From positions 1 to 64,000 of the forward strand of contig NZ_CAKLBP010000007.1 of assembly GCF_920984665.1 (NCBI RefSeq): 64,000 bases of DNA, read 5' to 3'. Shown here piece by piece: positions 27,519 through 42,001 of this stretch. The translations under genes were made by a program, and so were the position numbers. The notes beneath the pieces were generated by a model. The model worked only from the letters and a program-made list of their open reading frames with translations, had not been told where the DNA came from and did not search any database. Source of the stretch: Pedobacter sp. Leaf170 (GTDB taxonomy: Bacteria > Bacteroidota > Bacteroidia > Sphingobacteriales > Sphingobacteriaceae). Numbering within the stretch: position 1 is the stretch's first letter; each line of letters starts with the position of its first letter.

Positions 27519-28421
27519 TTAGTTGTTCCGGTTTTTAGTTTTAGGTCGATTTTTATTAGTAGTTTGAATTCTTATCCATTCAATGGCTTTGTTCATTGGT
27601 TCTGCTGAACTTGAGGTATTATGACCTAATTCGGGAAATTCGATGTATTCAAATAGCCTGCCCTCAGCTTTCAGCGCATTAATTTTAGCTTTTGAAAGTT
27701 CTACTGGGATTTGTATGTCTTTGGATCCAAAAATCCATAATCCTTTAATTTTAAGTGTTGATAATGCGTCTCGGGGTTCAGTCGGAGTAAAATTATATCT
27801 ATCTGTATCGTTTTTAATATGGAGCAAAGCATCTGTTTGGCTATGCGAGTCCCAAAATTTATTGTTGCCATTGGTATAAAACTGGAAACGTAACTGCTCG
27901 AGTGTATTGACCACCGGGCCACTAAAAATTATCATAAACTTTATCGCATTTAATTTTTGTGCGGCAATCGGAATAATCCATCCAGCCTGACTAAAACCCA
28001 TTAAGCCGAGTGGTATTTGTTTAGTTGATAAATGTTTAATCATAAAACTGCCTGCTGCAGCTGCATCCAGGGCTAATAGTTGCAGGTTTGCAGAATCAAT
28101 ATTGTTGGTGCCAACTTCTGGCCCTCGATATTGACCGCCAGATTCGCCGACACCACGTTTATCATAGGTTAAAACAGCAATGCCTTGTTTCGCTAAATCC
28201 TTCGCCAGATTTAACATTCGTTTTTCCTGGCCAGATCCATGTATCAACACCAAAGCTGCATGCGCATTTTTAGGCAAAAAAATGGAACCAGCTAATGTGG
28301 TTTCAGCACTTTTAAATTTTACATTCTGAATGGTGTAGGGTTTCCCAGTTTTATTTTTAACAGTTTGTGTTCAGAGAGCATGACCTAAAAATAGGAGTGC
28401 AAGCATATAAATCAGTTTCAT
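27519..28421 (-). pseudogene. Secreted alpha/beta hydrolase with an in-frame stop in its signal peptide
   Basis: The body is an alpha/beta hydrolase: LVLIHGSGQ oxyanion loop, TYDKRGVGES, nucleophile elbow GFSQAG, IFGSKDIQIP acid region and GHNTSS with the catalytic His. The frame starts naturally at ATG 28421 as a signal peptide (MKLIYMLALLFLGHAL). TGA at 28373-28371 interrupts it at codon 17, and the same frame then continues as TQTVKNKTGKPYTIQNV into the enzyme. One base change (for example TCA to TGA) explains this. Only weak internal starts such as TTG 28277 remain, and they would give a protein without a secretion signal. Likely inactivated unless read through or mis-sequenced. Confidence 0.7.
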
Positions 28422-28630: not shown

Positions 28631-30415
28631 TTATGGCGCATCTGTTGATTTAGCATCTATTATTTGATCGAAAGCTAATTTACTATTTCCTTCGCCACGT
28701 CCGGTTTGTCTGTATCTGCCTACCCAGTTATACGTTTTACCATTGTACCAGCGGCTTCTTTGCCATGCTCTGCTAATCAATGTGCCTGCATACGGAATTT
28801 CTTCCTCATTAATAAAATATGGAGCTTCCTGTTCATTTAAAAGTCTGCCTTTTGCTTTAACAGTATCTACAGGTGGATTTCCGAGTTTTGGCATTGAAGC
28901 TCTCTGGAAATGAATATCCTGATGATTATTGGGTAGCTGCATCGGTAAAAACGGAATCCAGTTTTGAGGTACTGTATTGCCAAGCATGTAACGTATTAAC
29001 GCTTTAGCATCTGGTATTGGTTCGGGTAGAATACCTTCTTTATGAGCAGCTTCATTACCATCAATACCAATTCCTGTTCCATCCGGAATAATTTCTTCAA
29101 TCGCCCAAACCATATTTGCCATTTCATCACGCATAAAATTAACCTGCTCAATTGGTGCGCTTTGTAAAGTGCTTGCTAAAGTAGATGTTAAGAAAAATTG
29201 TCTGTTATAGGCTCCGATATGGTCTTTATTGCTTAAGTTGAACATGCTCCATTTTTGCCATTGATTATCCAAACCTGCGTCAGCAGCTTGAATTAAAGTA
29301 CGGTCGCCAAATACATCCTTAACCACAAAACCATCAATTTCGCAAAGCGTATTGGTTTTCATCCTATAAGGAATTACAAACCAATCATTTCCATAAACTA
29401 AACCAAATTCTGCAAATAAAAGTAGTAGTTGGTCGTTTGTTTTTGCATTCAACGTTCCGAAGTTTATAGAAGCATCTTCCATTTCCCAAAAGCGCTGATT
29501 TGGCATGCCTTTAAAAGCTGTAGCTGTTGGAATAAAAGATATGGCTTTATCTTTTGTTAATTCAGGTTGATAATTTGACTGTTCTAAATCAAGCGACCTT
29601 TTATTTAGGTCGACATCGAAATTGTACCAATCCAAGTTGCCGCTATGGTAATTTGAGCTTTCCATAACCAATTGTGTACCATCAGGTTTTGGTGCGGCTG
29701 TAGAAAATCCATAACTCAGATTTTGGCCGCTCCAGGCATCTTCATTGTCGCTGGTTGGTTGTGTGTAAATTCTCTTGTACCAATTAATTAAGTTATTGGT
29801 GATGACTTTCATTTCTGCTAAATCTCCAGGTGCTATATTCACCTTTGTACTAAAGCTATCGTTTGCAACATCAGCAAGTAAAAGTTCACCATCAATTGAG
29901 CGTTTTACCGTACTGTTTAATAATTGTAAGCTATTTTCCTGATTCTCAAAATCAGGATTAGACGCTACGGTTATCGGGTAAATATTTAAATACTTTGAGA
30001 AATAAGCAGATTTTAACGTGGCGGTGTGTAAGCTTAAAAAATATTGAGATATCTGTATTTTCAGTGCTAAACTAAAAGGAATTACCTCTCTTTCAATTTG
30101 GGCTTCCATGGGCATTTCATTATTATATAACAATGCCGGGTTTTGCTGAACCGCCATTCTATCAATATGGATTTGTTTAGTGATTAACCTGGCATCAATT
30201 GCAGAGCCGGCATCTTCACTTTCTAATTCGCCCATTTGCCATTGGCGGGTTAAAAACCATAATCCATCATGTACGCAAGCTTTTAAACTCTGGTCGAAGT
30301 TTTCAGTACGTGCCCGCGGTTCTAGTCTGTTGTAGGCCGTTATAGATGCTATGCGATAGTCTTTCAACAAAACATCCGGAGAAAACTGTTTGATTTTATC
30401 GGTAAGTTGAATCAT
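28631..30415 (-). CDS. Giant-operon protein 4 (594 residues), unknown function
   Basis: This is the last gene of the four-gene operon. No signal peptide or membrane segment. Landmarks: YNRLEPRAR at about 29-37, ACVHDGLWFLTRQWQMGELES-EDAGSAIDARL at about 46-80, RFWEMEDASINFGTL at about 305-320, and FAEFGLVYGNDWFVIPYRM at about 330-350. The C-terminus is rich in Trp, Tyr and Arg (ISRAWQRSRWYNGKTYNWVGRYRQTGRG). From memory, similar RQWQxGExxxEDAG and VYGNDWFVxP segments occur in uncharacterised proteins of other phyla, which I cannot check here. No catalytic motif is recognised. Its ATG overlaps the stop of the preceding gene by 4 nt. Confidence 0.75.
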   Translation of the reverse strand: MIQLTDKIKQFSPDVLLKDYRIASITAYNRLEPRARTENFDQSLKACVHDGLWFLTRQWQMGELESEDAGSAIDARLITKQIHIDRMAVQQNPALLYNNEMPMEAQIEREVIPFSLALKIQISQYFLSLHTATLKSAYFSKYLNIYPITVASNPDFENQENSLQLLNSTVKRSIDGELLLADVANDSFSTKVNIAPGDLAEMKVITNNLINWYKRIYTQPTSDNEDAWSGQNLSYGFSTAAPKPDGTQLVMESSNYHSGNLDWYNFDVDLNKRSLDLEQSNYQPELTKDKAISFIPTATAFKGMPNQRFWEMEDASINFGTLNAKTNDQLLLLFAEFGLVYGNDWFVIPYRMKTNTLCEIDGFVVKDVFGDRTLIQAADAGLDNQWQKWSMFNLSNKDHIGAYNRQFFLTSTLASTLQSAPIEQVNFMRDEMANMVWAIEEIIPDGTGIGIDGNEAAHKEGILPEPIPDAKALIRYMLGNTVPQNWIPFLPMQLPNNHQDIHFQRASMPKLGNPPVDTVKAKGRLLNEQEAPYFINEEEIPYAGTLISRAWQRSRWYNGKTYNWVGRYRQTGRGEGNSKLAFDQIIDAKSTDAP

Positions 30416-33400
30416 GATTGTTTAATTAAATTTTGAATGACTTTGGCAGCTGTGTATTTTACTGAAATGTTTAAGGAGTAGTCTAAGGAAATATTTGTAG
30501 AACGATTTGCGCTAAACTCAGCCATTGTTGCAGGTAGGAGGGTGGTTAAATTTGGCATCGTATCTACATCATCCGGTTCTATGGCACGTTCTTTTGCTCT
30601 TTGGAAAGTATTTAAAACAGTGTTTGTTAAATCGTTCCAAGACCAGTTGCCGGTTTCATTGGGGCTTACGGCTAAAAGAATTGCCTGCGGCGGGCTACTA
30701 TTTGGTTGATTGTAGTTAAAGGTTATGCCGGTAACTTCTTCCTGATTTGGTATGGTTTCCGTCCATTCATCTATTAATAAACCAATTTGCGTTGCATTAG
30801 GATTAAAGCCTTGCGGCGCATAATAAACAAAAGATGTAGTATCATTAAGTAATTCAGTTTTTTTGGGAAATTCTACTGCTAACCAGCTATCATTGTTTTT
30901 GTGAGGTAGTTGCAAAGGCATTGCATCTAAAACTTCCTGATTAAAGTTTTCGTTTAACAATCGCACCATTTCCAGTGTGTGCATTTTTTCTCTTACTAAT
31001 GATGCGCTATGTAAAAATTCGCTAACCGGTTTGGTTATTCCAGGTCCGGCATTATCTCCTAAAGCAGGGTTTGAAGGTTTTTTTGCATAAGTTAATAAAT
31101 CATCTGATGAAGAAAAAGCGGCATCCATTTCAGCTTTATCTACAAAATTATATTTAGGAAGTACCATAAAATTATCTCCAAGAATGGTTTGAATCATTTT
31201 TATCAGCTTGATGCTTTCCTGTTCAATTTCACCTGTTGGATTTAGTTTGGCATTTTGTGCCTGATAAGCATTTTGCACTTCAAATAATCTTAAAAGCACA
31301 GCTTTTCCCTGCTCAATTAATGAATCTGCCGCTTCCTGGCCTTTATCAAAAGCATAATGAGGTTGCGCATAATTGAAATGAATATCTGCAATTCCTTTCA
31401 GCGTGGCTCGCAAATTTTCTATGGTTGTATCTGTTAAGTTTATCTGAATTGCATTCAGCGCATTTTGAAGTACCGAGATTGGCGATTCAAGAAAGTTTTG
31501 GTAAAGATTTATTGTTCGGTTCTTCAGCTCTGCTAAATCAATTTCTGCAGGATTATTATTTGCCGGTGATGTAGGTTTAGAAGGAAAATCTTTTGCATTA
31601 AGTGGCCTACTATTTCCTATAAGTTGGCGGATGTAGTTTGCAAAAGGTAATATTTCTGCAAAAGATTTTTTTGATAAATCAGCAGGGCTATCTGTTTCAG
31701 CAAACTGTATGTTTATTATCGTTTTATCTGATAGTAGTTGGTCTCTTAGAAAATAATACCGGATACGGCTTTCCAATTCTGAAGCGCCGGAGGTTTCCAG
31801 TTTATTGCGAATAAGCAATACAAAATCCAATGCTTGTATTTTTAGGTTTTCTAAACTTACCGGAAGCCTGATTTCGTTTCCTACGGCATCTTGCGCTGTA
31901 ACTACACACAAGATATCTGCTGGGTTTCCTAAGCGATTAGCTACCCAATTATTTAAAGCAGGTTCGGTTATAGATTTTGCACTTTGGTTAACATTTGGCC
32001 ACGGATTTGAATTTAATGAACTATCAAAGGTTAAGGCAATTCTGTTGGTGAAAGTCATTTGCGAACTTCTTGCTGTATTGATAACTTCCACTTCTGGTGG
32101 AATGGTTCCGTTGGCAATGGCCTGCATTACCGCAGTGGCACGGTCAAAATTACCTGTAGCCATCTGGTAAGCGCTTTCGGCGGTTAGTAAATCTTTTACA
32201 GCATCTAAAGTGTTTTTTAAATTGTTTCTTTCTTGTTCCAAGGCAGTAATCTGGGCAGCATTTAGCGTTGGTAGATTTGTTATCCCGAATGGAAAAGGCA
32301 ACACTACTTCTGCTAAAGCTAAACCATTAACCACTTCGTAACTTTCGGTAACTTCTTCAGGGCCGGTAACATTTCCTTCTTGCGGAACTTTAGTTTTTTT
32401 GATGGGAAAAGCTTTTCTGAAATCTGGCTTAAGCTGATTTAAAATAACCGGATTGGATGATCTGGTGCTCCAATCATGCAATCCTCTTTCAAATTGGTAA
32501 CCTAAAAGCGCATCGAGAGTTTGGCCATTTCTTATTCCTTCTAAAATTGCTTTGGCTCTTCTAACGCGTTCAGATGAAAGATTGACAGCTAATGCATCTG
32601 CATTTTGCTGATTTGCATGGGTTAAATAACCGTTGCGTAATATAGCTGCGGCAGTTGCATGATTTAGGCTTGGCGCATGTACATAACCGCCATTTTCATT
32701 CTCAATATATAAATTGTCTTCGTTTTCAATAAGTCCATCCGGGAGCATAGACTCCGCAACCTTTTTCCTCGTATTGCGCATCTTAACATTTTCAAGGTAA
32801 CCATAACTACCAAGATAAATACCTGTTTTGCGTTGCTTAATTCCGCCTTGTAAATTTCGTTGACTCACTATGCGTTGGTCAAAAAGAGAGGTTTGCCAAC
32901 TATCCAAACGGTAGCTTAAACTATCTATATGCTCTACAAAGGTTCTTTGTAAACGTGCTGTTGGTAAATCTTTTAAAATATTTAAAGCCCATTTATTTTG
33001 TTGAAGATTATTGGTGATGGTAAAATCGATAACTGATTTATGAACATGATTAAATATTGATGCGGTAGATTGTTCTGTATCTACAATTCTATTTACAGGC
33101 GCTTTGTAAATCTCCCATGGGCTAACAGAGGCTGAGGTGCTCATGTTCATAAATTTTCTGCTTTGCATTAATTCTGATGCATGGATATCCTTTGTAGCTA
33201 AAAATTTAAATATGCTGTGGTTGGTTTCCAGCAGTAAACCATTCTTCAACATCATGTAAAGCAATGGTTTTGGCTTTTCTTTATCGCCAAAATTGTCTTT
33301 CTCTAAACTTTTTTCGTTATCGATGTTGGCAAGCAACCAATCAATATAATTTAAATCATCGTCCTCATTAAAGGCTTTTATTTTATTTTCTTCTGATAGA

Positions 33401-35319
33401 GGCTGAGCATCAATTAGATTTTCTTTATCTAACCTTGTATTATAATGCTGAAATATAATTTCTAATAATAAAGGAGGTGTTTTTTTTGTGCCATTTTCCT
33501 TTTGCGTTTTATAACCCCAGGATTTTAGCAGATTCGTCATTTGAGAAGAATTTATTGCCATTAACATCGTATCTGCAAAATACTTTCCGTTGTACTCAAA
33601 TTTTTCAAGGTCTTTCAAGTAATCGTAACTATAGCCTTTCCGCTGGAAAAAATCTACTGACAAAGGATGTAAGCCCAATACTTTTAATAATGTGGCACCT
33701 GCATCTCCACTTTTTGTTATTTGCGGTAAATTTTTGGTTTTGTCTTTCCAAAAAGCCGCCATATAGATAAGAATGTTATACATTTTCTGGTAAAATGCAG
33801 ACATCTTATAGGGAAGGTTTATGCTAAAATCTTCAAATCTGGATTGTTTATACATCCAATTATCAAAGTCGCTGGTTACAACAATTCCATAAGGCTGGTT
33901 TCCAACCCTTATTGCAGCCAAAGGACCTCGGCCGCTAACAAAATTCAAGTAATGATTTCTTAATGCATTCGTATCTGCATCACCTAAAACACCGTTTAAC
34001 ATGGTGTTGGTGAAATAACCTAATGTACCCGGATACATTGCTGTATTCATGGCTATAGCTTCCTTGTGGTCGGTTATGCCACTATTTTTTACAGATTGAA
34101 AAATAGCGTAGTCTAAGCCAAAATATTCAGCAAGTCTTTGTCCATCGGTAGCTTCATGCGCATCATCGGTAGGGGTAAAGAGGATTTGATCTTGTTCTAC
34201 CTCCAAAGCCATATCATCTATCGTTTCATGGTTTTTAAAGCCAGAATCTCCCCCTTCGGTATTATTTGTTGGTGTACCTTGCTTAATCAAGGCTAAACCT
34301 TCCTCACTGTATTTATGGTTTTCTATAAGAGCTTCAAACATCTCTTTGCTTTCATTTTCATCAGCAGAAATTTTTAAGCCTAAAACCAGCAACTGTTCGT
34401 AACCTAGTTTTAAATCTTCATCGCTTTGCGAGATAATAAATCCCAAACCTTGGGCAACAGCTAAATCGAAGTCTGCCATCCAGGCATAATCCGCTCCATA
34501 TTGAATCCGATTTTCCTGTTCATCTCTGGTAAATGCAGGGTCGTTCTCATCAATTATTGGAGCCGGACCAACGGTTACTATATCTTTAATTTGTTGGCCA
34601 ACTATTTGTAAAACTTCTTTACCGTTTCTGTAGGCCATTAAAACAAAACGATCAGGCAAAACATTTGTATGTGCTGCAGCTGTCCAGCTATCAGGTTTTG
34701 TTTCTAAGTCTTCAAAAATTAAATCTTCTACAGTGTTTAAATCAGTACGTTGTTGCCAATTGGTTGGTTTAGTGCTTTTGGCTACCCAAACTGCTCTGTT
34801 TGTTCCAAATTTATCATAAAGCAATTGCCATGCTTCTTTTTTTACGCTTAGGTTTGCGGAGTTTTTAAATAAAATCTCCCAATGCTTTCTTCCATAATCG
34901 CTTTCATCTTTAGTTAGCAGCTTTTCATGGGTTACTATCGAAATATCGTCCGGATATACCCTCACCATTAATTGCGTACCCCGAATGCCTTTTCGGTATT
35001 TAGTTTCTAAACGAACCGGAAATAGGGTAATGGGTATATTATCCTGCCATTCTTCAATGAGTTGTTGAGGCTTGAGCTTAAGGTATAAATTGTCAATAAC
35101 CCTGTGGGTCATATCTGTCAGGTCCTTCTTCTCCGTGTTCCGTTTTTGAATTTGGTCTTTTAAATTTTTAAGCTGCGCTTGATATTTCTCATTAGGCGAA
35201 GCATTATTTTTGCGATCAAGATTTATAAATTGCAGTTGCAGTTTATACAATTCATCTGCAGTTTTATCTCTTTGGGCTTTTGCCTGCTTAATTTCTTTTA
35301 ACGATTCAAGATATCCCAT
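30412..35319 (-). CDS. Giant-operon protein 3 (1635 residues), unknown function
   Basis: The N-terminal 80 residues form a charged coiled coil (LKEIKQAKAQRDKTADELYK, KNLKDQIQKRNTEKKDL). Then comes a globular block with PITLFPVRLETKYRKG, VRVYPDDISIVTHE and LPDRFVLMAYRNGKEVLQIVG (about 95-240). A middle part contains RGPLAAIRVGNQPYGIVVTSDFD, and a long helical second half includes ARLQRTFVEHIDSLSYRLDSW, PDGLIENEDNLYIENENGGY-VHAPSLNHATAAAILRNGYL and RGLHDWSTRS. No membrane segment, ATPase or hydrolase signature. Size and helix/coil content suit a structural scaffold. The family is unassigned. Confidence 0.75.
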   Translation of the reverse strand: MGYLESLKEIKQAKAQRDKTADELYKLQLQFINLDRKNNASPNEKYQAQLKNLKDQIQKRNTEKKDLTDMTHRVIDNLYLKLKPQQLIEEWQDNIPITLFPVRLETKYRKGIRGTQLMVRVYPDDISIVTHEKLLTKDESDYGRKHWEILFKNSANLSVKKEAWQLLYDKFGTNRAVWVAKSTKPTNWQQRTDLNTVEDLIFEDLETKPDSWTAAAHTNVLPDRFVLMAYRNGKEVLQIVGQQIKDIVTVGPAPIIDENDPAFTRDEQENRIQYGADYAWMADFDLAVAQGLGFIISQSDEDLKLGYEQLLVLGLKISADENESKEMFEALIENHKYSEEGLALIKQGTPTNNTEGGDSGFKNHETIDDMALEVEQDQILFTPTDDAHEATDGQRLAEYFGLDYAIFQSVKNSGITDHKEAIAMNTAMYPGTLGYFTNTMLNGVLGDADTNALRNHYLNFVSGRGPLAAIRVGNQPYGIVVTSDFDNWMYKQSRFEDFSINLPYKMSAFYQKMYNILIYMAAFWKDKTKNLPQITKSGDAGATLLKVLGLHPLSVDFFQRKGYSYDYLKDLEKFEYNGKYFADTMLMAINSSQMTNLLKSWGYKTQKENGTKKTPPLLLEIIFQHYNTRLDKENLIDAQPLSEENKIKAFNEDDDLNYIDWLLANIDNEKSLEKDNFGDKEKPKPLLYMMLKNGLLLETNHSIFKFLATKDIHASELMQSRKFMNMSTSASVSPWEIYKAPVNRIVDTEQSTASIFNHVHKSVIDFTITNNLQQNKWALNILKDLPTARLQRTFVEHIDSLSYRLDSWQTSLFDQRIVSQRNLQGGIKQRKTGIYLGSYGYLENVKMRNTRKKVAESMLPDGLIENEDNLYIENENGGYVHAPSLNHATAAAILRNGYLTHANQQNADALAVNLSSERVRRAKAILEGIRNGQTLDALLGYQFERGLHDWSTRSSNPVILNQLKPDFRKAFPIKKTKVPQEGNVTGPEEVTESYEVVNGLALAEVVLPFPFGITNLPTLNAAQITALEQERNNLKNTLDAVKDLLTAESAYQMATGNFDRATAVMQAIANGTIPPEVEVINTARSSQMTFTNRIALTFDSSLNSNPWPNVNQSAKSITEPALNNWVANRLGNPADILCVVTAQDAVGNEIRLPVSLENLKIQALDFVLLIRNKLETSGASELESRIRYYFLRDQLLSDKTIINIQFAETDSPADLSKKSFAEILPFANYIRQLIGNSRPLNAKDFPSKPTSPANNNPAEIDLAELKNRTINLYQNFLESPISVLQNALNAIQINLTDTTIENLRATLKGIADIHFNYAQPHYAFDKGQEAADSLIEQGKAVLLRLFEVQNAYQAQNAKLNPTGEIEQESIKLIKMIQTILGDNFMVLPKYNFVDKAEMDAAFSSSDDLLTYAKKPSNPALGDNAGPGITKPVSEFLHSASLVREKMHTLEMVRLLNENFNQEVLDAMPLQLPHKNNDSWLAVEFPKKTELLNDTTSFVYYAPQGFNPNATQIGLLIDEWTETIPNQEEVTGITFNYNQPNSSPPQAILLAVSPNETGNWSWNDLTNTVLNTFQRAKERAIEPDDVDTMPNLTTLLPATMAEFSANRSTNISLDYSLNISVKYTAAKVIQNLIKQS

Positions 35320-35339
35320 GGTTACGATAAATTAGCGGG

Positions 35340-38300
35340 TTATATACTTTTTAACATTTCCTTTGCGTGTACAGCTATCATCACCGGCTTTTGATATAAG
35401 ATATGTCCCATTCTGGCAGAATTTTGACCCCAGTCATCTACATTTTCAGGTGCTGCAGGTTTAAAATCACCGTTCGGTTTAACATCAGTATTGATAAAAC
35501 CATCAGTTGGCGTGTATTTATCCCATCTTAGGTCATCCCAGGTTACTTGTGTTCCACTTTTTTCAAAGTTTACATCCATTCCAAAGCGTGGTTCTCCCGG
35601 TATTTGCTGAATGATGAAATACCATCCCCAGTCATCTGTCTCAAGTTTAGGTTCATCTTTTCCCATTGCCTGTGGTACGGTTAAATCGAAGCCAAAGAAT
35701 TTTATATCCGGATTAATTTCTGCTTTAAACATTGGAAATTTAATTTCTGCAGCCATTTCTGCCTGCGTTTCTACTGCTTTTATTACAGGCTGTTTGTTTG
35801 CATTTATTACACCGTTTTCATCTTTAAATATGTGTGCTTTCTGAGCGTAAATAATGGTGTTTGGATATTTTTTAAGCAATTCGCCTCTCACCACTAATAC
35901 AACTTGTTCTCCATCTGGAGCTTTTCTTTTAGGATGTGTGCCTAACGCACTGTTGCTGTACCATTTATCTATGGGTTGTATATCTTTATATTCTTCTTTA
36001 AGCTGATTAGGATCCAGATTATTGTTATTGCTGATGATGCCTTTTACATCCCAGAATTGCCTAAAATAACTACCTCTTTTATCTGTTGGATATTCTCTCC
36101 AAAGTAATTCTTTGCCAAATTCATGGTTTAATCCAACCATATAAGATTCTATAAACTCCGGGTTGGTTACCAATAAAGAAATTGTATTTTGTGGAATCAG
36201 TTTTAAATTAGGTATTAGCAGCTCTGAGGATATATCGCGGAGTTTTTCATACATCGGTTCAGGCATGTCTGGGTAAGCCATAGCGGGTACCAGATTGTCA
36301 AAATTAAACAACCAGTTTTTATTAAAGGTGTAAATAACAAATGAGGCCAGCATTTTAGGAAAAACTTTTCTCGGATCTGTTGCTTCCTGCAATTTTAAAT
36401 GAGCATTACCAATGTCAAAGCGGCTAAATTTTCTTTCAGGCGTTTTAATAGATTCAAGCTGATTTAAATGAATTGCCGCAGCCCTGAAGTTTGCCGCTTC
36501 TACACTATCTTTTCCATTAGCGCCGGGCGTAAATGTATTTGTAAAAGTATAAGCTAATCCATCTTCACCGCTAACTGTTTCTTTGGTTTCGCTGCTTACC
36601 TTAGTATTTCCACTATTTGTTTCAATAATAAGTGGATTGGTTTCCTGGAATACAAAATCCGGTTGCGGTGGCGATTGCTCGAGATTTTTTACTATTTCTT
36701 CAGGGTTATTTAAATCCTTAGGGTTAATATTAGTTGCCTTACTATTTTTTGCCTTAAAGTAATATGCAATTGCAATTATTGCAGCAACTAAACAGAAATA
36801 CCATGCACCCGTTATTAAACCAAAAATCAAAATCGCCACTAATATGAGTATTAAAAATAGCAATAGATTTTGAAGAATCCAGCTTAATAACGGATGCTGA
36901 GTTTTGCCTGGCATATTATTAAGTTTTTCATCTATCCTAGGTAAACCTACAGGTATAATTTTTGGCGGAGCTGCCGTTATTTTGCCATCATTTATATCGT
37001 TTACAAGTGTGCTATGATTAAAATTTGGATTTACAATTGCGATTTTTTTAAAGAATGGTCCTCTTGGCCTAAGTATTTTACGCAAAGCTGTATTTACAGC
37101 CGCAGTTGGTACAAAGCTTTCTTCCAGTTGATATTGCAAGGTTGTTGGTGAGCCTTTAACTTTTTTAAGTAATGGCGATAAAAAAATAAGCGACTGTGCC
37201 GGTTGAAGTTTGCTTGTAAAATTGGTTTTTAATGTTTGGCTTACCTGCATAGCAAAGGCAGCAAACTTAATCCTGATGTTTGCCTTTTTTACATTTTCAA
37301 CTTGTTTCCATGCCTCTGCAACATATTTTTCCTGGTCTTTCTGCACAACGTTGGTTCCAAATCCAGCCGGCACTCTGTTTCTTGGATCTTTATTTAACTC
37401 ATGTAACCAACCCGCTTTTTGTGTGTCGATTTCATTAGTAAGGGCATGGTTTTGGCCATAAATTGGCGGACTAACAACTGGATCGGTTTCCGTGTTAGAA
37501 GCTTTTTTAATTTTTTCAGGAAAATTTAATACATCTTCCAGTTGATTGAAGAAGGGCTTAGTGGTATCTAAAACTTTAGGCTCCGAAACTGTAGTTGGCG
37601 CTTTTAAGGCGCCTTCCAAACCAACAACATTTAATGCTTCTGTAATGCCAATGTCTGTGCCTTCTGTTAAGCCAAAGCCCGGTTTCGAACCATCCATATC
37701 TCTGATACCGAGTTTTGAGTCCATTATTCGAGGCTCCAAAATCTTTACCAGTGATTCAAAATCCTGATTATCTCCGGTTTTAAAAAACCAATGATAGTAA
37801 ACCGGAAATTCTATGTTGTTCGAGCTTGCGTTCCATGATGGTTTTTGCGCATCAACTGTTTCATTTTCTAAACCCAAACCTGAAAGTCGCCCGGTTTCAA
37901 AAGCAGGGATCAAAAAAGCACGATAGGCTGTATTGCTATCAAGTTTACGTGGACAAAGCAGTCTGCCAATAATTTTGTCGCTGTTTTCGTTGTCTAAATC
38001 ATTTAAGGTTTTCAGAAAAGCTTCAAACTCAGTTGTCGAATCGTGACCTTCGTTTATATGAACATGGCTCCATGCCCAAATTTGATTTGAAGGAGGCAGA
38101 TTGTTTCCATGCTTTACAATTACCGAAGGTAAAGGCAGTTTTTTTTCATTGAAAGTGAATTCTTCGTTTCCCGCTGGTTGCTCATCTTTTAAAACAATAA
38201 GTGCAAGCCATGGCCTCAGTTTATCACCGTTGGCCTGAGCCGGAGTATATCGCCATAAAAAGTCCTCATCATAAAATTCAATAAATGGTAAATAGTTTGG

Positions 38301-38555
38301 CTCAAAATTCGTTATCCAATTTAGCGGCTCGGTACGCACTATCATGGCTGGATTTACACCAATAATATCTCCGGGACTAAGCAATTCAAAATTTTTGCTT
38401 TCTAGGTGGTCATTTATTTTTACTTCAATATTAACAGTAGAGCGAAGGGTGTTTGATGTTGCCCCACTGCCCAAATTATCGGTAGTGGTAATACGACCGC
38501 CAATGCCTTTACGCATCCAAGAGCCAAAGGTATATTTTGCTACTTTTATACTCAT
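35340..38555 (-). CDS. Giant-operon protein 2 (1071 residues) with central membrane segment, unknown function
   Basis: The N-terminal block has LPFIEFYDEDFLWRYTPAQ-ANGDKLRPWLALIVLKD (about 87-125). In the middle, residues about 553-600 are strongly hydrophobic (ILQNLLLFLILILVAILIFG and WYFCLVAAIIAIAYYF), enough for two membrane helices, an unusual position in so large a protein. The C-terminal half resumes as a soluble domain (WREYPTDKRGSYFRQFWD, GWYFIIQQIPGEPRFGMDV, WDDLRWDKYTP). There is no signal peptide. Part 2 starts 2 bp after the preceding stop, so translation is coupled. I know of no characterised relative. Confidence 0.75.
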   Translation of the reverse strand: MSIKVAKYTFGSWMRKGIGGRITTTDNLGSGATSNTLRSTVNIEVKINDHLESKNFELLSPGDIIGVNPAMIVRTEPLNWITNFEPNYLPFIEFYDEDFLWRYTPAQANGDKLRPWLALIVLKDEQPAGNEEFTFNEKKLPLPSVIVKHGNNLPPSNQIWAWSHVHINEGHDSTTEFEAFLKTLNDLDNENSDKIIGRLLCPRKLDSNTAYRAFLIPAFETGRLSGLGLENETVDAQKPSWNASSNNIEFPVYYHWFFKTGDNQDFESLVKILEPRIMDSKLGIRDMDGSKPGFGLTEGTDIGITEALNVVGLEGALKAPTTVSEPKVLDTTKPFFNQLEDVLNFPEKIKKASNTETDPVVSPPIYGQNHALTNEIDTQKAGWLHELNKDPRNRVPAGFGTNVVQKDQEKYVAEAWKQVENVKKANIRIKFAAFAMQVSQTLKTNFTSKLQPAQSLIFLSPLLKKVKGSPTTLQYQLEESFVPTAAVNTALRKILRPRGPFFKKIAIVNPNFNHSTLVNDINDGKITAAPPKIIPVGLPRIDEKLNNMPGKTQHPLLSWILQNLLLFLILILVAILIFGLITGAWYFCLVAAIIAIAYYFKAKNSKATNINPKDLNNPEEIVKNLEQSPPQPDFVFQETNPLIIETNSGNTKVSSETKETVSGEDGLAYTFTNTFTPGANGKDSVEAANFRAAAIHLNQLESIKTPERKFSRFDIGNAHLKLQEATDPRKVFPKMLASFVIYTFNKNWLFNFDNLVPAMAYPDMPEPMYEKLRDISSELLIPNLKLIPQNTISLLVTNPEFIESYMVGLNHEFGKELLWREYPTDKRGSYFRQFWDVKGIISNNNNLDPNQLKEEYKDIQPIDKWYSNSALGTHPKRKAPDGEQVVLVVRGELLKKYPNTIIYAQKAHIFKDENGVINANKQPVIKAVETQAEMAAEIKFPMFKAEINPDIKFFGFDLTVPQAMGKDEPKLETDDWGWYFIIQQIPGEPRFGMDVNFEKSGTQVTWDDLRWDKYTPTDGFINTDVKPNGDFKPAAPENVDDWGQNSARMGHILYQKPVMIAVHAKEMLKSI

Positions 38556-38557
38556 CT

Positions 38558-41500
38558 TTAGTTTAGTTCAAATTGTGCAACTACTTGTAATTGATTCTTT
38601 AATGCAGGATTTTTCCTTAGTAAATCATCTTGCAAAGCATAAGCCTCCGCTTCTGAGTTAAAGCTTGTTGTATTGCCATAAGTGCTTAAATCTTTTGTAT
38701 TTACGATACTGTACAAACGTGTATTTATTTTTATTGTGGCAGGGCTTATGGTTGCCAATTTATTACTTACAGAATATGTATTCTTGCTTATCGCGTTTCC
38801 TTTAGAAAATATATTAAACACTTTATCTAATAATTTAAAGCCAGTAACTTTAATAATAAAGGCTATTCCTTTTTTGCGATGAACATAGCTCAATTCATAA
38901 TCTACTTCTTTTTGTAGTTCGGTACCATGTAAAATTTCGTTAGAAGTTTGAAATTTAATGCCGCTTCTCATCCGTTCAAATGATTTACGGGAGAGTTTTT
39001 CGCTATCTTTTAGCCTGATGAAATTTCCAATTGCAAATTCTTCATCCATTGGCTGCGTTGCAGAATTATCAGTTACCGAAAGTGAAAACTTAGTCTCATT
39101 AGCTGGCTTATCATTTCCAAATTTGTTGATTTCCATATCCAATGGCGTAACCTTTTGGCTTAAGGAGAGCATGGTAAATGGATGGACGACTATCTTACCT
39201 GCAGGAAGTTCAATTTTACGCAGGGTAACATTAGTATTTGTGTTTGCTGGTAAATCTGCCTTCCAGTTGCGGTCATCCCTTATCGCATCAATAATCAGTT
39301 GTTTTACGTCTATTGGTTTTTCCAACTGAGGTGGCGCCTGGTCGCCCCAGGTAACATCGAACTTAACACTAATTTTGACGAATAATATTTTTAAACTTGC
39401 TTTACCAAGTGCTCTCCACGGGGTTGGTCCGCTTAACTGGCCAGCAAGGTGGATTCCGGCAATTTCGCTGCTGCCTCTACGCAAGGCAATACCAGCTTCA
39501 ATTTGTGCAATAAAATAGAAAGGATTAAACTGTACCAGTAAATCATATCCTAAGTAACCAAATGCATTAAAGCCGCAAGCTTCTGCATAGAGCTCTACTC
39601 TGGCACCAGATTGTACCGTGTTTGAAGTTACGGCAAAGTAAGTTGCAACACTAATCCTAGGGTTTTTACCAGAAAGTAATGAAATGGTTATCCGTTTCAT
39701 GTTTCTTAAATCCGTTGGAATTTCGTTAAATGATGGGTGAAATCCACCTACAGATAATATAAACATTGGCTGGTTGCCCCATCCAATTCTTAATGCCATC
39801 TCTCCTGTTAAAGTAAAGGCCAGTAAGCGTGAATCAAATAAAACAGCATTGAAAGATATGCCCTGGTTAAAATCTATAACACCTAAAAAGTTAACCTGTA
39901 ATTTTAGCAGCGGTGCTTCTTCGGTTGGCAAAATGCAGCGTAGTACACCTAAAATAATAATTTTGGTTGCTGGTATATCTATAATGATACCCATCTCGAG
40001 TGAGATTAAGGTAGGCGTTCCCCAACCAATCTTTGCCATTGGGGCAATTATAAATGTGCCTTTCGATATTGGGAAGACCTGCTGTAAATCACTTATAATT
40101 CTGGTAATATTGTTAACGATATCCTGAGGGAATAAAATGCTATTGATAGCGCCAGTGCGTAAACCCTCTTTTAAGGCATCTACTTCTGTTCGTCGGTTTA
40201 CGGCTAACAAACCGCCAACACCAACAAGTGTAAAGCCAAAGCCGAGCTGGATAGGGGCAAACTCAGCCGTAATCAGGATAAGTAAAGCAAAGCCTTCGCT
40301 TCCATCAGGCATTTTTGTAGATATAATTGCAATTGCCTTTAAATCGATAAACCCTTGAAACGACAATTCCAGGGCACCAATATATTCTCCTTTTTCAATA
40401 TCAACACCTAAAAATCCACCGCCTTTTATTACGCCTGTATCAATAGATAAGCCCACCCGTGTGGGCGGAACAAATTCAATTCCCAAATTGGCAAAGGCCA
40501 TATTTCCATCTAAATTATTAGGAAAGCTAATTGGGAAGTGTGTTCCAATACCATCAATAATGGCAACCAAAGGGCCTAGATTAGTTTTTATGATGACCGT
40601 TAAACCAACTTTTAAAGTTGCTGAGTCTGATATTGCGGCCTTAAAATGAAAGCCTTCGATAATTATTGCAACTAAATCTATATGTAGCGGAATTAAAATA
40701 TCAAGCCCGGCACTTCCGGCTATGCGAAGGCCATTTGTAGGATCCCAATTTGCTTTTAAATCAAATGCAGCTTCTGCCTTAATATTGGATAGTAGCGTTG
40801 TTATAAATCCGTCGCCGCCGCTAAAATCAATAATCAATTTTCCGCCTTCCAAACTGATTTGTACAGAAGGGCTGATTTGGGTTTGCGAATTTACTGCCGC
40901 AGTATTTAGACCTAAACTCGCCTGAATTTTTTGAGCTTCTAACCTCGTTCCACCTGATGCGCCAATAAGCATAAAGGCGTCGTTATTACTCTTGCTACCG
41001 GTAAGAGATAAGGTGGTGTCCATTAATGCATTACCATTAACAGGTTGTAAAGTTAATTTAAGTGGAAACGCTAATTTACCGGTTAATCCTGCTCCAAAAG
41101 AACGTGTATTTTGAACTCTAGCTTTCCAAATACTAGAGATGTTGTAGCTTTTATCAAAAGTATTATTTCCACTAACTTTAATTTCAAATTTTATTCCCGG
41201 AGGATTTAATGTTGAATCATATTCTGCTTTAAAATAATCTGATTCCAGTACAATCGGCCCGGTTCCTATTTGAGTTATTTCAGCAGGAATGCCAAGCTCA
41301 ATGAGTAAAGCACGGGTTTTTTCGAGTATTTCTTTGCCGGTAAAAGTTGGCAAACCTAGCTTAAAAGTATCTTGTAGGTAGGCTTGTGGATTAGACAGCA
41401 TTTTGAAAAGCCTGTCGAAATATATTCTGCGTGGTGTAATTGCAGGAAGTGGTGTAGTTAATACCATTCCTGGAGGTAGAATGATTTCTTTATCAATTGT

Positions 41501-42001
41501 GCCAAGTAAATTAATGGCTCGTGTTAGTAATGGAAAGTACTCGTTCAGATAACCGATTAAGCAATACTCAATTATCCTGATTGGAAGATTATCTGCAAGC
41601 GCTTTTAAGTCTGCCTGTACATTAGCTGGCAAACCTAATATTGCAGTATTTAAGGCAATTCCTAATTCCTTTATTTTCTTAAGGATATCGATAATTAATT
41701 TGGTGAGTTTTATGCCTTCTGCTATAATTTGCGTTACATCTTTAGCGCTTATTGCGGCTTCTAAAATCGAAATTGATGAGGGTAAGCCCGTAACGAGCGT
41801 TTTAGTTTCTGCCAGTTTACTTAATATACCCGCATTGTTCTCTAAGCTTTGTGGTAGAGGCACACCTAGTTTTGCAAAAATATCGGGTGTTAACAGAGTA
41901 GAAAGCGGTTTTAAAGCTTTTCCCAATGCTAATGTAATGGATTCAATTGTGCCAGCCGCTGCCATATACCAAAATTTTAGGTTATAACTATGCAAAGCCA
42001 A
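38558..42001 (-). CDS. Giant-operon protein 1 (1147 residues), DUF6603-like, unknown function
   Basis: This is the first gene of the operon. The ATG at 42001 or an internal one at 41965 (MAAAGTIESITL) could start it. Residues 1-200 are hydrophobic-helical; from about 290 on it is a long series of alternating beta strands. Residues about 540-760 have APIQLGFGFTLVGVGGLLAVNR, AINSILFPQDIV, FIIAPMAKIGWGTPTLISLE and EMALRIGWGNQPMF, which I recognise as DUF6603-like (from memory). Function unknown; the extended repetitive beta structure recalls scaffold or groove-forming proteins. No signal peptide or catalytic motif. Confidence 0.75.
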   Translation of the reverse strand: MALHSYNLKFWYMAAAGTIESITLALGKALKPLSTLLTPDIFAKLGVPLPQSLENNAGILSKLAETKTLVTGLPSSISILEAAISAKDVTQIIAEGIKLTKLIIDILKKIKELGIALNTAILGLPANVQADLKALADNLPIRIIEYCLIGYLNEYFPLLTRAINLLGTIDKEIILPPGMVLTTPLPAITPRRIYFDRLFKMLSNPQAYLQDTFKLGLPTFTGKEILEKTRALLIELGIPAEITQIGTGPIVLESDYFKAEYDSTLNPPGIKFEIKVSGNNTFDKSYNISSIWKARVQNTRSFGAGLTGKLAFPLKLTLQPVNGNALMDTTLSLTGSKSNNDAFMLIGASGGTRLEAQKIQASLGLNTAAVNSQTQISPSVQISLEGGKLIIDFSGGDGFITTLLSNIKAEAAFDLKANWDPTNGLRIAGSAGLDILIPLHIDLVAIIIEGFHFKAAISDSATLKVGLTVIIKTNLGPLVAIIDGIGTHFPISFPNNLDGNMAFANLGIEFVPPTRVGLSIDTGVIKGGGFLGVDIEKGEYIGALELSFQGFIDLKAIAIISTKMPDGSEGFALLILITAEFAPIQLGFGFTLVGVGGLLAVNRRTEVDALKEGLRTGAINSILFPQDIVNNITRIISDLQQVFPISKGTFIIAPMAKIGWGTPTLISLEMGIIIDIPATKIIILGVLRCILPTEEAPLLKLQVNFLGVIDFNQGISFNAVLFDSRLLAFTLTGEMALRIGWGNQPMFILSVGGFHPSFNEIPTDLRNMKRITISLLSGKNPRISVATYFAVTSNTVQSGARVELYAEACGFNAFGYLGYDLLVQFNPFYFIAQIEAGIALRRGSSEIAGIHLAGQLSGPTPWRALGKASLKILFVKISVKFDVTWGDQAPPQLEKPIDVKQLIIDAIRDDRNWKADLPANTNTNVTLRKIELPAGKIVVHPFTMLSLSQKVTPLDMEINKFGNDKPANETKFSLSVTDNSATQPMDEEFAIGNFIRLKDSEKLSRKSFERMRSGIKFQTSNEILHGTELQKEVDYELSYVHRKKGIAFIIKVTGFKLLDKVFNIFSKGNAISKNTYSVSNKLATISPATIKINTRLYSIVNTKDLSTYGNTTSFNSEAEAYALQDDLLRKNPALKNQLQVVAQFELN

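Follow-up and report, generated by a model that had tools for sequence, protein, structure and literature searches.

The question raised by this locus is what four large adjacent genes, only one of which belongs to a described protein family, accomplish together in Pedobacter sp. Leaf170. The genes lie in a stretch of 64,000 nucleotides, hereafter the window, and are termed A (38558..42001), B (35340..38555), C (30412..35319) and D (28631..30415). All four are co-directional on the minus strand with A first, B following A after 2 bp and C following B after 20 bp, while C and D overlap by 4 bp. A preliminary description of this DNA had presented them as an operon of 1147, 1071, 1635 and 594 codons, and these ORF lengths, the two gaps and the overlap were all recovered, the start of A at the TTG codon at 42001 being the part that probably does not stand. 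Since homologues begin with M....GTLE, this start was moved to the ATG at 41965, which is probably the true one and gives a protein of 1135 aa. On the same strand, 353 bp downstream of D, an alpha/beta-hydrolase-like ORF occupies positions 27519-28277 of the window; it is absent from P. jejuensis, and it may be truncated or broken, since an in-frame stop separates it from an upstream signal-like stretch.

Only A could be assigned to a family. It scored 404.8 bits for DUF6603 (PF20248) against a Pfam gathering cut-off of 27 (E 6.6e-121), which makes it a clear member, as the preliminary description had proposed for one of the proteins, and its alignment with 52 homologues presented a mean column identity of 42%. 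DUF6603 is a family name without a function, and Pfam has no entry for B, C or D, which accompany it here. No credible match was obtained in Pfam, NCBIfam, PHROG or PADLOC for B (1071 aa, conserved in its N- and C-terminal halves), C (1635 aa, with a charged, coiled-coil-like N-terminus) or D (594 aa, for which no known fold was found), and the PADLOC models returned zero matches for the four proteins altogether. The earlier remark that no catalytic motif could be recognized agreed with the absence of the catalytic families of Pfam and NCBIfam from all four proteins, and in the window copies no export signal was obvious. Sequence and profile searches against solved structures yielded no PDB relative for B, C or D, and the profile matches of A-D to PDB entries corresponded to coiled-coil and designed-bundle (helical-bundle) noise and were set aside. 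It had been foreseen that the four proteins might match unrelated known families; instead, only A could be placed in a family. The short motifs named in the preliminary description (RQWQxGE, VYGNDWF, LPDRFV and RYTPA..LRPWL) turned out to be real and conserved across phyla. The literature search found no paper mentioning DUF6603 or PF20248, and the search on lamin-tail domains and eCIS found nothing concerning the four-gene set.

The firm part of the answer comes from the conservation of the set. Relatives were found in at least 14 bacterial phyla and in haloarchaea, and when genomes were scanned with the alignment of B, 327 relatives were obtained, of which the best 80 were taken. The A-B-C-D order and strand were kept in 54 of the 56 loci long enough to be tested; in one of the two exceptional loci D was placed on another contig, and in the other A had been displaced within the contig to a place beyond D. 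Gene order survived the splitting of B or C, as seen in Rhizobium and Halobellus, and it was also kept in plasmid copies from Streptomyces, Nocardia, Rhizobium, Paraburkholderia, Gemmatirosa and haloarchaea. Among 396 Bacteroidota genomes, D occurred in seven, B in exactly the same seven, and A (DUF6603) in all of them, DUF6603 being above cut-off in these seven set-bearing genomes and in eight more. When 60 relatives were sampled, including 37 from the genus, only the window genome had DUF6603 above cut-off. The co-conservation of A-D is far beyond chance, and the four proteins would constitute one obligate assembly, a reading well supported by these sequence comparisons. The preliminary description had suggested that the parts were always together in distant phyla and had proposed synteny as the check; the order proved to be conserved across phyla and archaea, not among close relatives only. 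A lone D was also observed (L012:19941-21746), on a Streptomyces anthocyanicus plasmid whose record lacks DUF6603, and represents an exception to the co-occurrence.

In the B tree, 29 phylum changes were counted for 14 groups, the minimum possible being 13, and starred clades mixed phyla, for example grouping Pedobacter with Verrucomicrobia and Aquincola, and Chitinophaga with Crenothrix. BLAST comparison of the two Pedobacter loci revealed zero common flanking genes. The phylum-mixed tree and the unshared flanks together fit repeated horizontal transfer of A-D, which would be inherited and transferred as a unit, with the reservation that bins may hold foreign contigs. In an empty-site comparison within the genus, the neighbouring transporter gene was itself not conserved. 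A phage origin of A-D was considered and rejected, as PHROGs gave no credible match and IMG/VR a single fragment in three scans; viral collections hold almost no relatives, and the phage collection contributed one unverified faecal record. This record (MT835531.1, 'Bacteriophage sp.') contains the end of A together with B, C and D, and is likely a misassigned bacterial contig.

Where such an assembly would be seated is suggested by A and B. The AF2 model of A (pLDDT 79, pTM only 0.49) began with a helical N-terminal part and continued into a long, extended beta-meander (39347..41284, minus strand; model residues 228-873) in which pLDDT was mostly 75-90. Its strands are strongly amphipathic, with a strand alternation of 2.93 against a shuffled mean of 1.46 that none of 500 shuffles brought up to the observed value. 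In B, the double membrane segment that had been noticed in the middle of one protein was located at residues 554-602, a hydrophobic hairpin encoded at 36750..36896 (minus strand) and usually situated between the two conserved halves. A membrane-like segment was found in 56 of 67 B homologues, at about the same place in those listed, and was missing in 11 of the 67. The copies of B tested from Algoriphagus lacked the hydrophobic hairpin. Based on the amphipathic A and the hairpin of B, A-D may be membrane-associated, with A and B seating the assembly on or in the membrane and C and D completing it. Part of D is consistent with such a partnership, since residues 21-70 (LWFLTRQWQxGExxxEDAG; 30206..30355, minus strand) are highly conserved, with a mean conservation of 0.56 against 0.35 for the remainder of the protein, and are predicted to be disordered alone (pLDDT 32-61). 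The model of D as a whole reached pLDDT 79 and pTM 0.76, and its conserved stretches 21-70 and 301-350 ranked among the least confident parts, as would be expected of an interface; residues 21-70 may therefore contact a partner protein. Foldseek found no significant match for D in the PDB or in BFVD (viral).

The same features of A and B could also describe a bridge-like machine that transfers or holds lipids, in which the amphipathic beta-sheet of A would be tethered through B. The long, one-sided hydrophobic meander of A recalls the long amphipathic beta-sheet of bridge-like lipid-transfer and Lpt/AsmA proteins, the weak Foldseek matches of A included LptD and ApoB besides outer-membrane barrels and an usher, and the hairpin of B would supply the tether. 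However, the TM-score over the query was only 0.05-0.15, so that the resemblance of A is a local pattern and not an overall fold, and the top matches were a mixture of outer-membrane barrels. For A, no global fold match to these lipid-transfer proteins was obtained, and A-D also occur in single-membrane organisms, archaea and actinomycetes included. This reading would, moreover, leave the exchangeable proteases encoded upstream of the set, described below, without a reason, and we consider it distinctly unlikely.

An interchangeable fifth gene directly upstream of A is new in this analysis; it was invisible to the preliminary description because the window strain lacks it, and neither this strain nor its nearest relative, P. 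jejuensis, has an enzyme gene upstream of A. As a raw count, a co-directional gene ending at most 300 bp before A was present in 58 of the 73 loci in which over 3 kb of sequence precedes A. The upstream product was often a hydrolase, many of these genes were unannotated, and the recognized families were unrelated to each other, including subtilase, NAL1/trypsin-like, M64, PhoD-like phosphatase, PLD-like, tyrosinase and GlxA-like oxidase proteins. Catalytic motifs (GDSG, HExxH, HKD and those of subtilases) were present in many of them. A signal-peptide-like start was found in none of 63 upstream proteins, according to a simple hydropathy rule applied to uncertain start codons. Mapped onto the B tree (43 rows, 7 labels), the upstream family changed 23 times, whereas shuffling gave a mean of 26.4, and sister pairs often differed in their upstream enzyme, such as locus L055, with a trypsin-like protein, and L064, with a subtilase, which are separated by a branch sum of 0.23. 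An all-against-all search detected no common docking domain among the upstream proteins, which fell into several unrelated groups. In six Algoriphagus loci the separate upstream gene was absent and A itself reached ~2200 aa, owing to a long N-terminal extension. Considering its position, the absent export signal and its fast exchange, the upstream protein may be a client or cargo of A-D, and the assembly would carry, hold or deliver an enzyme devoid of the customary signal for export. In that case the window strain would represent a core-only example, or would encode its client elsewhere.

Exchangeable enzymes could also be explained by an intracellular conflict or defence system, in which A-D would sense infection and restrain a cell-damaging enzyme. 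The patchy distribution of the set, its movement between phyla and its presence on plasmids would suit such a role, as would its interchangeable hydrolases without signal peptides, which recall known defence systems with swapped effectors; on the other hand, A-D presented no PADLOC match and no recognized NTPase or nucleotide-signal domain, and oxidases and a tyrosinase would be unusual effectors, which leaves this explanation unlikely. Alternatively, A-D could be a multi-enzyme platform bound to the cell, on which enzymes would be matured or displayed at the surface and not delivered to other cells. In three loci on haloarchaeal plasmids, C or D carries annotated domains of this kind (a BGTF surface domain in C, a lamin tail in D) and C reaches more than 3000 aa, so that the archaeal copies look decorated. 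These surface-type domains favour a platform, and the hairpin of B would fit its anchoring, but the A-D proteins of the window carry no obvious export signal and the recognized upstream families have no binding module in common. We regard a surface platform as quite unlikely.

Exchangeable or variable enzymes also occur in described systems. In extracellular contractile injection systems (eCIS), a mobile multi-gene core works with exchangeable enzymes, and in Tc toxin complexes very large proteins act together with a variable enzyme part. The A-D set shares the mobile core and the exchangeable enzyme with eCIS (e.g., PMC11297309), which it adjoins in Chitinophaga, but it has no contractile parts. 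It resembles Tc toxin complexes (e.g., PMC10847046) in its giant proteins and variable enzyme, although the listed results, from sequence searches with A-D and fold searches with A and D, contained no match to Tc components.

In Chitinophaga (sp. S165, loci L032 and L118; also L033, L034 and L107), a contractile injection locus lies directly after A-D on the same strand and comprises Pvc16_N, sheath, gp19 tube, CIS_tube, spike, baseplate J and S74 fibre genes; Pvc16_N and the next gene followed D in four species. Eight Bacteroidota genomes had DUF6603 but no B or D by these searches; the seven of them that were inspected contained a diverged set, designated type II. Its A core was homologous to that of A (hhalign probability 99.5%, E 4e-23), as was the N-terminal domain of its B (94.9%, E 4.7e-8). 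The two multi-gene sets have in common A and the beginning of B, but in type II no homology to C or D was detected in the partners C' and E', and other large proteins are found instead. Proteins of the S74 tail-fibre-chaperone or Collar-domain type and a metallo-beta-lactamase-like protein were observed beside some type II sets.

These neighbourhoods would be accounted for if A-D were an accessory module of eCIS, involved, for example, in cargo loading or in tail-tip extension, an idea favoured by the Chitinophaga arrangement from Pvc16_N to the S74 fibre genes, by the four species with Pvc16_N after D and by the S74/Collar genes of type II loci. Nevertheless, the window genome contains neither the sheath (PF17482) nor Pvc16_N (PF14065), no contractile genes were found in the short flanks examined for other set loci, and Pvc16_N occurred in 2 of 7 set-bearing Bacteroidota genomes versus 74 of 389 others, which indicates no clear association. 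A general dependence on contractile systems was accordingly rejected, the proposal of a contractile-system relative does not hold for the set in general despite the Chitinophaga locus, and an eCIS module is of low probability.

The explanation that we favour, tentatively and at slightly less than an even chance, is that A-D form an obligate, membrane-associated assembly of four proteins serving an exchangeable enzyme, whose carriage or delivery we infer. The S74/Collar neighbours of type II sets and the contractile adjacency in Chitinophaga were counted in its favour; counted against it were the B homologues without a hairpin, the low pTM of A, the lack of a shared docking domain, the core-only loci of the window strain and P. 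jejuensis, and the fact that tyrosinase and oxidase are not obvious effectors. Delivery of the enzyme to other cells would be a further step beyond the role of a client. More doubtful, in our view, is the bolder proposal that A-D represent a new cell-built carrier, unrelated to phage tails and known toxin complexes, which would load an interchangeable enzyme and move it out of the producer or into other cells and would be shared horizontally between bacteria and archaea.

Any function proposed for A-D must explain why a four-part set, mostly of unknown families, has been kept from Pedobacter to haloarchaea, and the swappable enzyme neighbour makes a role as carrier or platform directly testable. 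Should A-D deliver enzymes, they would join contractile systems and Tc complexes as an additional means of delivery; should they not, the set would still be a widespread machine without a name.
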